Part shown: in pieces, positions 12,448 to 16,291 of the stretch
Layout: every line of letters begins with the position of its first letter
Position numbering within the stretch: position 1 is the first letter of the stretch
The notes under the pieces: model-generated
Seen by the model: only the letters and a program-made list of their open reading frames with translations
Database searches by the model: none
Told to the model about the DNA's origin: nothing
Made by a program: the position numbers and the translations under genes
From: a bacterium
GTDB lineage: Bacteria > Bdellovibrionota > UBA2428
DNA length: 64,000 nucleotides
NCBI GenBank assembly: GCA_009991595.1
Contig: JAACVK010000036.1
Span: forward strand, 1 to 64,000
Direction: 5' to 3'

Positions 12448-13416
12448 ATGTATTGGATGACTTTGTTAGGGACCATTATGCTTTTCTTTGGAGGCGATTG
12501 GCTTGTTGCTGGTGCTTCTTGGGTGGCCAGGCGATATGGAGTCTCTAAGCTTGTTGTCGGCTTGACTCTTGTTGCTTTTGGCACGAGTGCCCCTGAGCTT
12601 GCTGTGAGTGTCTATTCCGTTTTGAAGGGTGAACCTGACATAGCTGTTGGAAATGTCGTTGGTAGTAATATTGTAAACATATTACTGGTTCTGGGGGCCT
12701 CTGCTCTTGTTCACCCAATCCAAGTTGGATCCTCGCTTCTTCGATCTGATTTGCCTTTTTTGATGGTGGTAAGCCTTCTTTCTTTTTTCTTAGCTTTCGA
12801 TGGGAGCATAGGGCGCTTTGAGGGTCTTTTTCTGTTTTTGTTACTTGTTGGGTATTTGTTTCGATTGTTTTACAAGGCTTCAAAATTAGGAGAGGTTTCA
12901 GAAGTTATCGATCTAGATGAAATTGACGAAGCTGAGGTGGGCTCAGATGAAAGTGCCATAAAGGAAATTTCTAAACTCATAGGCGGGGTAGTAATTTTGA
13001 TTGTTGGTTCAAAGTTTTTTATTGATGGAGCAACCCAGATGGCTCATAACTTTGGAGTTAGTGATGCCGTCATAGGGTTGAGTGTAGTTGCATTGGGGAC
13101 CAGCCTGCCTGAAGTGGCAGCTTCGGTTGTAGCGGCCTTTCGTGGGCAAAGTGCTATTGCTTTGGGGAATGTGATCGGGAGTAATATATTTAACCTTCTT
13201 GCGGTTATGGGAATCACTTCTATGATTAGTAAGGTTGGAGTTGAGGTGAGTTCCGAAATTTTAACACAAGATTTTCCGCTTATGATTTTAATCACAGCTC
13301 TGTGCTTCCCATTACTGATTACAGGCAATATTGTATCTCGCGTTGAGGGTGGTTTTTTGCTTTTATCCTACGGAGTCTACCTAGCTTACATTTTCGGTTT
13401 TATTGCAATCGGCTAA
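12448..13416 (+). CDS. CaCA-family Na+/Ca2+ (cation) exchanger, YrbG-like
   Basis: 322 aa with about ten membrane helices in two inverted halves. Each half carries the alpha-repeat: LTLVAFGTSAPELAVS with GNVVGSNIVN in the first, and LSVVALGTSLPEVAAS with GNVIGSNIFN in the second. The Glu residues in SAPEL and SLPEV coordinate the transported cation. A short acidic loop (about 150-165) joins the halves. It exports calcium or a similar divalent cation in exchange for Na+ or H+. Its stop overlaps by four bases the end of the convergent bufC-like gene, but there is no sign of shared transcription. Confidence 0.93.
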   Translation: MYWMTLLGTIMLFFGGDWLVAGASWVARRYGVSKLVVGLTLVAFGTSAPELAVSVYSVLKGEPDIAVGNVVGSNIVNILLVLGASALVHPIQVGSSLLRSDLPFLMVVSLLSFFLAFDGSIGRFEGLFLFLLLVGYLFRLFYKASKLGEVSEVIDLDEIDEAEVGSDESAIKEISKLIGGVVILIVGSKFFIDGATQMAHNFGVSDAVIGLSVVALGTSLPEVAASVVAAFRGQSAIALGNVIGSNIFNLLAVMGITSMISKVGVEVSSEILTQDFPLMILITALCFPLLITGNIVSRVEGGFLLLSYGVYLAYIFGFIAIG

Positions 13417-14150
13417 GGTTTTCTATTTTTTCCAAGACTAAGGAGTCTTTTTGCTCCCCACTTTTGGAAAAAACTAGAAACAGATTCATGGTCAAGGTTA
13501 CTGTGTTTTTCTTGTAGGCGCTCAAAAGCTGTTTCTAATGGCGTATTCCTTAGAAGCTCTGCGAAAAAATCGTGTTCGAAAGTCGAGATCGATTCGTAAC
13601 ATGGTGTAGAGCCTTCAACGCAAAAAATATAACAACGGTTTTCGGTGGGATGTATTTCTTCATCCTCATAGATCAAATCAACTGGGAAGGAGCATTCTTG
13701 TAAGACGATAGAACGCTCGATTTGAATCTGCAGACTTCCTGTGCTTTCTTCTAGTGCTATCGCTTTTTGCTTGTTGGAGCCTTGAAAGCGGCATTGAATC
13801 AGGTTCCATTCAAAAAGAGATAATTCTTTCCAGAGATTATTTTGTGGCTCAACTTTAGCCAAAAAATCCGGGAAGGTTCGACTATATTCATTGAGAGTAT
13901 AATATGTGGAGGGATTCTCAATTATGAAGGATTCTATGTTTTTAAGGAAGAGATCTTTACCCATTAACTTTTCTGTAATGGGAAAGTCTTCAATCAGAGC
14001 TTCCTTAAAGCGGATGTTGCATCCGTTTTTATAGATGTTGAAGCGCGCGTTTTGCTCTTCAGTATCTTTTGCTTTAATCCAAGCTAGCTCTCCCGAGGAG
14101 TCTAGCCTCGACACAAAGCGTTTCTGAAAGTCAGCTAACCATTGGCTCAT
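13413..14150 (-). CDS. bufC: BufC-like partner protein (DUF2063 / putative DNA-binding domain family)
   Basis: 245 aa from the ATG at 14150. An in-frame upstream ATG at 14258 would reach deep into the MNIO gene and gives no family match, so I reject it. The N-terminus MSQWLADFQKRFV and the ARFNIYKNGCNIRFKEALIEDFP segment are typical of DUF2063 proteins, which sit next to MNIO (DUF692) enzymes and act as their partner, binding the precursor. The start overlaps the end of bufB by 20 bases, implying coupled translation. Despite the Pfam name, DNA binding is unlikely here. It is the last gene of the bufABC operon. Confidence 0.85.
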   Translation of the reverse strand: MSQWLADFQKRFVSRLDSSGELAWIKAKDTEEQNARFNIYKNGCNIRFKEALIEDFPITEKLMGKDLFLKNIESFIIENPSTYYTLNEYSRTFPDFLAKVEPQNNLWKELSLFEWNLIQCRFQGSNKQKAIALEESTGSLQIQIERSIVLQECSFPVDLIYEDEEIHPTENRCYIFCVEGSTPCYESISTFEHDFFAELLRNTPLETAFERLQEKHSNLDHESVSSFFQKWGAKRLLSLGKNRKP

Positions 14151-15021
14151 TCGAGAGAACCTCCTTTCTTGGCTTTTGCATTCTATTGAAAAGGATTCGA
14201 GCCTTATCCAATTCGGCTTCCAGTCTTTGAAGCGAGGGAATCTTCGAGTCCCATTCAATCATGGTGCTTCTATGGCCAATTTTTTCTAGGGCGTATTCAT
14301 ATATCTTCCATGCTTCGGGCATCATTGGGCCGCTATGGGTATCTATGAAAAGGTCCCCCTTTTTTGAGGGGCCAGCCAGATGATACTGAACAATGTGTTC
14401 TGCGGGGAGGGTGTCTATGTAATCACGTGGATTGTTCTGGTGATTGTGGGCACTTACGAAAATATTGTTAATGTCACACAATAGACCACAGTTAGAGGTT
14501 TTTGCTAACTCCGCTACGAATTTCCATTCAGACATGGTGGACTCTTTAAATTCGACATAACTTGAGACGTTTTCAATGACCATAGGTCTTTGAAGGTAAT
14601 CTTGAACTTGCAAGATCCGAGTGGAGACATGTTGGAGGGTTTCTTTTGTATAGGGAAGTGGGAGTAGGTCGTGAAGATTTCTACCGTGCACTCCTGTCCA
14701 ACACAAATGATCGGAAACCCATTCGGGCTCCACTATTTCAATAAGTTGTTTAAGTTTTTTCAGATAGGACATATTCATGGGGTCGCTGCCTCCAATAGAC
14801 ATCGAAACTCCATGGAGAACAATGGGGTAATTTTCTCGAATTTTCAGCAAACGCTTTAAGGAGCTTCCACCTACGGCTGTATCGGAGAAACCAAGAAAGT
14901 TTTCTGAGATAACCTCGAACCAATTTGCTTTAGATTCGCCTGAAAGCACTTGTTTGTAGTGAGGAGGGCGCAGACCAAGGCCAAAGCCTAAGTTTCTGAA
15001 ATTAAATTTTGAAGTATTCAT
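14131..15021 (-). CDS. bufB: MNIO (DUF692) multinuclear iron oxidative enzyme, BufB-like
   Basis: 296 aa TIM-barrel enzyme. MNIO enzymes use two or three irons and O2 to modify cysteines of a ribosomal peptide, for example to thiooxazoles in bufferins. The expected ligands are visible in order: LHGVSMSIGG (His), EWVSDHLCW (Asp, His), IENVSSY (Glu), CDINNIFVSAHN (Asp, Asn, His), YHLAGP (His), DTHSGP (Asp, His) and MIEWDSKIP (Glu). It lies 61 bases after the precursor gene and overlaps bufC. Its likely substrate is the Cys-repeat peptide encoded upstream. The product and metal specificity are inferred from bufferin work, where these operons protect against copper. Confidence 0.92.
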   Translation of the reverse strand: MNTSKFNFRNLGFGLGLRPPHYKQVLSGESKANWFEVISENFLGFSDTAVGGSSLKRLLKIRENYPIVLHGVSMSIGGSDPMNMSYLKKLKQLIEIVEPEWVSDHLCWTGVHGRNLHDLLPLPYTKETLQHVSTRILQVQDYLQRPMVIENVSSYVEFKESTMSEWKFVAELAKTSNCGLLCDINNIFVSAHNHQNNPRDYIDTLPAEHIVQYHLAGPSKKGDLFIDTHSGPMMPEAWKIYEYALEKIGHRSTMIEWDSKIPSLQRLEAELDKARILFNRMQKPRKEVLSNEPMVS

Positions 15022-15040
15022 TCTTTGAGCTTTTTGTAGA

Positions 15041-15065
15041 AGGAGAGGTTGTTGTGACCTCTCCT
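15041..15065 (-). promoter_or_regulatory. Stem-loop between bufA and bufB (attenuator or RNA-stabiliser)
   Basis: A perfect 9-bp stem (AGGAGAGGT / ACCTCTCCT) with a seven-base loop lies in the 61-base gap. No T-run follows on the transcribed strand, so it is probably a 3'-end stabiliser or partial terminator that keeps precursor mRNA in excess over the enzyme mRNA. Confidence 0.6.
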
Positions 15066-15082
15066 ATCTGTTTAGTTAATCT

Positions 15083-15373
15083 TTATTCTTCGCCAGAACA
15101 AGTGTCTTTGCCGCAGCTATCTTTCTCTTCTTTACCTTCACAGCCATCTTTGCCTTCACAGCCGTCTTTTGCTTTCTCAGCTTTCTTTTTTTTGGCTTTG
15201 TCCATTCCTTTGCAGCCATCTTTACCTTCACAGCCATCTTTTTCTTTTTTCATTTCTTTCTCGGCGGAAGAACTTTTGGATTTAGCGTGGGCTGTTTCGT
15301 TTGCGATTAAAGCCCCTGCAAGAAGTCCAGAGATTGCTGCTGTTGTTAATGTTGCGGTTAATTTTTTACTCAT
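15083..15373 (-). CDS. bufA: Bufferin-type RiPP precursor with repeated Cys-Glu-Gly-Lys-Asp-Gly-Cys motif
   Basis: 96 aa from the ATG at 15373, which begins a clean signal peptide (MSKKLTATLTTAAISGLLAG, cleavage after HA at 30). An upstream ATG at 15418 would add 15 residues that spoil the signal, and AAGGGA precedes the chosen start. The exported part is Lys/Glu/Gly-rich with six cysteines (48, 54, 72, 78, 87, 92). KDGCEGKDGC occurs twice, and a degenerate third copy (KDSCGKDTC) ends the chain. Bufferins have a signal peptide and EGKCG-like Cys motifs modified by the adjacent MNIO enzyme; this version has the Cys pair outside EGKDG. Metal (copper) binding in the periplasm is the expected role. 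Confidence 0.82.
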   Translation of the reverse strand: MSKKLTATLTTAAISGLLAGALIANETAHAKSKSSSAEKEMKKEKDGCEGKDGCKGMDKAKKKKAEKAKDGCEGKDGCEGKEEKDSCGKDTCSGEE

Positions 15374-15505: not shown

Positions 15506-16291
15506 TCATAGAAAGTAGAAGTTCAATCGAAGTGTTGCTTCTACAAATAAACCGCCGAATCTACTCGTCGCCTCAGTTGTTCCATCTTCCAAATATAGAG
15601 TCGTCGACTCTCTCGGGACATCGAAGAAGTCACCGCCAGGGCTCTTTACACTCCAGGTTCCCCCGAGGGAATGTTGGTAGCCGGTTGTAAGGCTTAAGAC
15701 CCACATGTCCACTAGCCATAGTTCTCCAGTGATTCCTGCCCCTATCAAGTAGTTCGAGGAGTTCAGTGTAATAGTCTCTTTGTTGTCCAAGTCCGGTTGG
15801 AAGGCGAGGATGGCCTTATTCTTTATGTATTCAGCACTTAAAGAAAGCATCAGGCGGGCCGCCGTGTCTCCGGTGAGCATCAGGTCGAGTCCTGCGCCTA
15901 CGCCCATACCCTTGATGGTAGTTCTTCCAACTCCCGTTGGAGCGTTCAGCTTGTTCCAAGTTTTTTTGTTGTTAAAGAGATAGCGTCCGTAAAGATGAAA
16001 TGTATTGAAAGGGCCTCCCCAAAACAGTCCAATTCGACTGGGATAGAGAGCATAGTCTTGAAGTTTTGTGAAATTGTCGTCCTCGCCAGACAATTGTTTG
16101 ACGGGTTCAAATTGAGTGGAGTGGGGAGATAGGGAGGGAAAGCTTCGGCCTATTCCAAAAACTAAACCTCGTTGTTGGTCGTTGAAGCTAGTTTTAACTG
16201 CATGGCCTAGTTCAGAGTGCACAAGGAATGCAAGCGAACAAAAGATCACCCTGACTAGGCTTAGGCAGTAGTTTGAGTCTAGCGTAGACAT
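15506..16291 (-). CDS. Outer-membrane beta-barrel protein, unknown function
   Basis: 261 aa. A hydrophobic N-terminal signal (about 10-30, ending near GHA) is followed by alternating amphipathic strands rich in Gly and aromatic residues. The final strand, EATLRLNFYFL, has aromatic residues near the C-terminus as in barrel insertion signals. I estimate eight to ten strands. It lies directly upstream of the buf operon on the same strand, but the ECF-like bufA promoter sits between them, so co-regulation is uncertain. No closer family can be named. Confidence 0.65.
   Translation of the reverse strand: MSTLDSNYCLSLVRVIFCSLAFLVHSELGHAVKTSFNDQQRGLVFGIGRSFPSLSPHSTQFEPVKQLSGEDDNFTKLQDYALYPSRIGLFWGGPFNTFHLYGRYLFNNKKTWNKLNAPTGVGRTTIKGMGVGAGLDLMLTGDTAARLMLSLSAEYIKNKAILAFQPDLDNKETITLNSSNYLIGAGITGELWLVDMWVLSLTTGYQHSLGGTWSVKSPGGDFFDVPRESTTLYLEDGTTEATSRFGGLFVEATLRLNFYFL

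Follow-up and report, generated by a model that had tools for sequence, protein, structure and literature searches.

The window analysed here is a stretch of 64,000 nucleotides (nt) from a Bdellovibrionota bacterium (UBA2428; assembly GCA_009991595.1, contig JAACVK010000036.1, positions 1 to 64,000). We confirmed that its minus strand carries, at 13413-15373, a real and intact operon of the bufferin/captophorin type, bufABC, encoding a ribosomally synthesized and post-translationally modified peptide (RiPP) and its processing proteins. With a probability of roughly 0.75, this operon makes a copper-buffering thiooxazole peptide. The operon type is already known; the cysteine repeat of the precursor BufA lies outside the current BufA2 family model.

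The bufABC operon and its proteins

The ends of the interval coincide exactly with the bufC stop and the bufA start, and it holds the following three genes.

15083..15373, minus strand: bufA, RiPP precursor, 96 aa, 6 Cys in three di-Cys cassettes (open reading frame, ORF, and translation)
14131..15021, minus strand: bufB, maturase of the multinuclear non-heme iron-dependent oxidative enzymes (MNIO; DUF692), 296 aa (Pfam PF05114, NCBIfam NF050167)
13413..14150, minus strand: bufC, partner with DUF2063 and RiPP recognition element (RRE) parts, PME-type 1, 245 aa (Pfam PF09836, AlphaFold2/Foldseek)

The gap between bufA and bufB is 61 nt, and bufC overlaps bufB by 20 nt, with its best start at 14150 (MSQW...), inside bufB. 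The ORFs and the Pfam and NCBIfam matches bear out the bufABC order proposed in the sequence-only reading, namely a signal-peptide-bearing Cys-rich peptide followed by an MNIO and a DUF2063 partner. The whole genome has one MNIO gene and one DUF2063 gene, and both are in this operon.

BufA runs from a signal peptide through a Lys-rich stretch to KDGCEGKDGC, a Lys-rich linker, a second KDGCEGKDGC and finally KDSCGKDTC, with cysteines at residues 48, 54, 72, 78, 87 and 92.

15284..15373, minus strand: Sec signal peptide/leader MSKKLTATLTTAAISGLLAGALIANETAHA, read from the sequence; cleavage probably after AHA
15212..15241, minus strand: BufA cassette 1, KDGCEGKDGC, residues 45-54 (sequence pattern)
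15140..15169, minus strand: BufA cassette 2, KDGCEGKDGC, residues 69-78 (sequence pattern)
15098..15124, minus strand: BufA cassette 3, degenerate KDSCGKDTC, residues 84-92, Cys spacing 5, not 6

Two exact units and a degenerate third had been claimed earlier, and they are present at these residues. The earlier reading set this spacing against the usual EGKCG form, which is the wrong comparator: the six-residue spacing and the C-x-G-K-D-x-C form of BufA belong with Buf2 ('Cys-Lys'). Neither a KC dyad nor an EGKCG repeat occurs in the BufA sequence. The residue after Cys is Glu at three sites (Cys48, 72 and 78) and Lys at one of the six (Cys54). Cassettes 1 and 2 differ at 3 of 30 bases and every change is synonymous, which suggests selection acting on the protein. 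A genome-wide search for D[GAST]CxGKD[GAST]C hit just these two cassettes, and the reversed control pattern had no occurrences.

The n-, h- and c-regions of the signal peptide can be read by eye. The h-region fits a leader motif, approximately LLxxAAhAGLhxG, whose core we observed in 86 of 116 precursors of relatives. Since the signal peptide of HvfA and of bufferin has been reported to double as the leader (PMC13419390), this motif is likely to be the docking site of BufC.

BufB scored 340 bits against PF05114 and 351.8 bits against the NCBIfam model MNIO_BufB NF050167 (cutoff 310), compared to only 60 bits against the MbnB model (cutoff 325). It could be aligned with 3BWW, TglH and MbnB; residues H70, H105, E150, D183, N186, H214, D227 and H229, with predicted ligand roles, are identical in cpMbnB. 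No relatives of BufB turned up when viral contigs were scanned. The residue next to the putative catalytic Asp is considered further below.

14245..14247, minus strand: codon of BufB Ser259, beside the putative catalytic Asp258 (IEWDS), placed by alignment; 3BWW has Phe here

BufC matched PF09836 (DUF2063) with 54.6 bits (cutoff 27.2) and is too divergent for the NCBIfam HvfC model, scoring 34 bits, below the cutoff of 142. An AlphaFold2 model built from 23 aligned BufC proteins (predicted local distance difference test score 83.8) shares its two-domain fold with TglI and NGO1945, both partners of MNIOs. The best Foldseek matches of the model were TglI from the TglHI holoenzyme (8hi7, E 1.9e-6) and NGO1945 (3dee, E 3.2e-4), and a leader-bound RRE domain, TbiB1, matched weakly (E 0.34). 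A DUF2063 domain with an RRE fold defines the PME-type 1 partner (PMC12452194); BufC, with its DUF2063 domain and modelled TglI/NGO1945-like fold, is a partner of this type.

Distribution and relatives of the cysteine repeat

A tblastn search of genome contigs with the BufA protein as query found no relatives. A degenerate DNA pattern for KD[GAST]CxGKD[GAST]C, scanned over 84,980 named genomes, hit 53 stretches, compared to about 2 expected by chance (our own estimate). At 43 of the 53 sites the fetched stretch also held an MNIO gene, usually with a DUF2063 gene. These sites span at least six phyla, among them Verrucomicrobiota (Opitutaceae, Akkermansiaceae), Planctomycetota, Bacteroidota, Ignavibacteriota, Myxococcota and Bdellovibrionota, so this genome is not alone in having the repeat. 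In the main text of the papers listed by a search of the open-text literature, the strings GKDGC, CKGKDG and KDGCKG did not occur. Hundreds of unclassified small Cys-containing ORFs are mentioned in PMC12452194 and may include precursors with KDGC repeats.

The nearest known group is Buf2/BufA2 (Buf_6/12Cys; 'Cys-Lys' captophorins), which shares with BufA the signal peptide, an MNIO of the BufB type, a DUF2063 partner, six cysteines and the six-residue spacing C-x-G-x-[ND]-x-C. The residue before Cys is mostly Gly, Ser or Ala in Buf2 relatives and Gly, Ser or Thr in BufA. On the other hand, Glu replaces Lys after three of the BufA cysteines and the NF050166 model of the family does not match BufA. 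Buf2 relatives commonly have a 5+1 layout of cysteines, whereas BufA has 2-2-2 cassettes with Lys-rich linkers and no C-terminal GW...C tail; the 2-2-2 arrangement was found in 5 of 117 precursors. Hybrids that join KDGC repeats to canonical BufA2 units were also seen (L072, L076, L077, L088, L094, L098). Scores against NF050166 formed a gradient from 62-69 bits for three canonical relatives through 40.6 for the hybrid L077 and 19-21 for pure repeat arrays to none for BufA.

The EGKCG precursors (oxazolin HvfA, fontiphorin FonA and Microbulbifer MmrA) share repeated short Cys motifs and the same enzyme pair. HvfA has a signal peptide, as BufA does, and three di-Cys cassettes occur likewise in HvfA, as paired motifs, and in MmrA, flanked by Lys runs. 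The cysteines of BufA, however, follow Gly, Ser or Thr rather than Lys and are spaced by 6 (5 in cassette 3). Other (CxGKDG)n precursors have the C-x-G-K-D-x-C repeat, the leader motif and the operon in common with BufA. They differ in that Cys is followed mostly by Lys, Ser, Ala or Pro and the arrays are often longer and uninterrupted, and their MNIOs fall mostly in clades apart from that of the window's BufB. The BufA1 (DUF2282) bufferins have an MNIO/DUF2063 operon and Sec export too, with a 4-Cys domain in place of six repeated cysteines. More distant is methanobactin (MbnA/B/C), whose MNIO has metal-site residues in common with BufB; MbnA has no signal peptide, and the partner family differs.

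We built a tree of 117 MNIOs with the tips labelled by precursor type; explaining the repeat-type precursors took five or more changes on its supported branches. The window's BufB was outside the large repeat clades and joined, with weak support (Shimodaira-Hasegawa-like approximate likelihood ratio test 80-85), enzymes whose precursors are canonical or of the CADGSCG type. Its two closest enzymes (55-56% identity, one from the window's own family) had a different precursor, located 3' of bufC. Because of these changes and of the different precursors beside the closest enzymes, the precursor part of the operons is replaced rapidly in evolution, and KDGC repeats probably have more than one origin.

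At three loci of BufB relatives (L039, L033, L030) the small ORF just before the MNIO gene encodes a precursor of the type KCADGSCGDKKDKKKKK, which matches none of the groups named here; in L039 it is laid out as three di-Cys cassettes. A genome of the window's phylum (G011; PCXB01, Deltaproteobacteria bacterium CG11_big_fil_rev_8_21_14_0_20_45_16) has four MNIO operons (L007, L018, L020, L021), with two canonical Buf2 precursors, one KDGC repeat and one precursor resembling BufA1.

Probable modification of BufA and its likely role

On the most likely reading, the cysteines of BufA would be converted to 5-thiooxazoles, at all six sites or most of them, and the exported peptide would buffer copper; the chemistry, the export and the copper function are read across from characterised relatives. 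The RRE-like part of BufC, itself in complex with BufB, would recognise cytoplasmic BufA through the Sec signal peptide, which would act as the leader. BufB, with O2 and a mixed-valent di-iron centre, would turn each Xaa-Cys (here Gly/Ser/Thr-Cys) into a 5-thiooxazole with a loss of 4 H, working iteratively through the three di-Cys cassettes. The modified BufA would then be exported by Sec and lose its signal peptide, and its thiol-bearing rings may bind Cu(I) and buffer an excess of periplasmic copper. Characterised products of MNIOs with PME-type 1 partners have all been reported to carry 5-thiooxazoles and generally bind copper (PMC13097082). In HvfA with its three paired motifs and in MmrA with its three Lys-run-flanked cassettes, all six cysteines are modified, with a loss of 4 H each (PMC13419390, PMC12538549).

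Several results weigh against this reading. BufA had no match to the NCBIfam BufA2 model NF050166 at E<=10 (cutoff 60 bits) and none above cutoff in Pfam, DUF2282 (BufA1) included. No DoxX gene was seen among the ORFs neighbouring bufABC, and no metal regulator is adjacent to it. The Lys-Cys enzyme FonBC left substrates with a charged residue after Cys unprocessed, including QCEKA (PMC13097082), so the Glu-flanked cysteines of BufA may be poor sites. In addition, the residue after the catalytic Asp is reported to govern selectivity around the modified Cys and to be Phe in Lys-Cys MNIOs and Asp, which contacts the substrate Lys, in Cys-Lys MNIOs (PMC13097082). Before any counting we had set the hypothesis that an acidic residue there predicts Lys after Cys; it was unsupported, with mean Cys-Lys values of 0.51 vs 0.44 (p 0.26) and no trend in phylogenetic pairs.

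The same FonBC result would favour a partial modification, in which BufBC converts just Cys54, 87 and 92, and Cys48, 72 and 78 stay as thiols or disulfides in a mixed thiooxazole/thiol peptide. BufA1 is modified only at the central two of its four cysteines (PMC12452194), and relatives rarely have Glu within C-x-[GSA]-K-[DEN]-x-C, where it occurs in 2 of 117 precursors, those of the window and of locus L114. The selectivity position, however, is Ser259 in BufB and Phe in FonB, charged neighbours are evidently accepted by Cys-Lys enzymes, and Glu is kept in both exact cassettes, where the changes are synonymous only. We regard partial modification as unlikely.

Quite improbable is a metallothionein-like use, in which the exported cysteines would bind metal directly and the MNIO would modify BufA to a minor extent or act on another precursor. 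BufA is short and rich in Cys, Lys, Asp and Glu, and some bufferin-like precursors occur without MNIO genes (PMC12452194). Here, on the other hand, bufA directly precedes the sole MNIO gene of the genome, its product has the leader motif common to relatives, and the repeat elsewhere mostly adjoins an MNIO. A third alternative, that bufA encodes a low-complexity or collagen-like surface peptide or is a spurious ORF that chance has put beside an MNIO, is largely refuted by the linkage and can hardly be credited: it would leave the leader motif, the placement of the cysteines and the cross-phylum MNIO linkage unexplained, and the weak collagen-like and tail-fibre matches of BufA (Pfam 0.15, NCBIfam SclB 0.0011, PHROGs 9e-5, far under the curated cutoffs where such exist) were artefacts of the G-K-D composition.

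Within the reading of bufABC as a thiooxazole operon, the two partners depart from the known specificities. The Cys-Lys group is reported to have Asp after the catalytic Asp and multiple Cys-Lys pairs, compared to Ser259 and one Cys-Lys here, and the Phe reported for the Lys-Cys enzymes of the EGKCG group is absent from BufB. The enzyme of L114 has Ser after the catalytic Asp, as does the window's BufB. After the result of the acidic/non-acidic test, we defined post hoc a group of enzymes with Ser, Asn or Thr at this position. In a first sample, all nine of its precursors had Cys-Lys values of <=0.17, compared to a mean of 0.52 elsewhere (p 4.7e-5). A second sample (5 vs 36, p 0.003) was only partly independent, as one of the five duplicates an earlier precursor and three are of one family. 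Still later, His and Arg were joined to the group for the phylogenetic pairing; with this widened small-polar group, precursors were Lys-poor for 17 of 18 enzymes, compared to 18 of 138 for the remaining ones. The pairing was consistent in direction (mostly 4-5 to 0) and not significant (median p 0.125).

We treat the association of Ser, Asn or Thr beside the catalytic Asp with Lys-poor precursors as a hypothesis, a lead rather than a result. It is more speculative that BufB, through Ser259, is adapted to substrates without Lys after Cys and hence accepts Glu-flanked cysteines. Tentatively, and with considerable doubt, BufA and BufB could form a separate specificity class of thiooxazole MNIOs, neither Lys-Cys nor Cys-Lys, with Ser/Asn/Thr replacing Asp/Phe in the enzyme and Glu/Gly/Ser/Pro after Cys in the precursor; a Glu-flanked thiooxazole array would then bind metals with a different charge, number or preference. 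A different pattern of modified cysteines, which the earlier reading proposed, is conceivable in view of the Glu after three cysteines and of Ser259. The earlier suggestion of another metal preference is unsupported, as metal choice is not readable from sequence.

Loci L206-L209, from another phylum, have long KKCSGDKKCSGDKK or KKCGADKKC arrays beside MNIOs in which His or Asn follows the catalytic Asp.

Surroundings of the operon and wider meaning

Between bufA and bufB we observed a hairpin with no T run on the bufABC strand.

15041..15065, minus strand: hairpin between bufA and bufB, RNA fold -16 kcal/mol, z -3.76 vs dinucleotide shuffles

Relatives often have stable structure just 3' of the precursor stop, with a mean z of -2.6 against mononucleotide shuffles at 117 loci. 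For example, L157, L026, L008, L105, L113 and others have strong hairpins between the precursor stop and the MNIO gene, several with T runs. These hairpins suggest widespread leaky terminators in such operons; the one in the window is probably a partial terminator or an mRNA stabiliser that would keep the precursor in excess over the enzyme. A promoter scan gave 5 matches vs 3.7 expected and carried no information.

A Ca/Na antiporter gene (12448-13416, plus strand) is convergent with bufC and overlaps it by 4 nt; a cation antiporter beside DUF692 operons is mentioned in PMC8692599. Upstream of bufA, the gene at 15506-16291 (minus strand) encodes a predicted secreted, barrel-like (outer-membrane-like) protein with no Pfam or NCBIfam match. 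Both were rejected as members of the operon: no homologue lay near the other MNIOs fetched, nor in extended loci from two close relatives.

The (CxGKDG)n precursors escape the curated BufA2 model and yet adjoin BufB-type MNIOs in many poorly cultured phyla. They enlarge the repertoire of likely copper-buffering peptides and offer natural enzyme-substrate pairs that make MNIO selectivity directly testable: the residue next to the catalytic Asp can be swapped in the enzyme, and the one that follows the modified Cys in the substrate.

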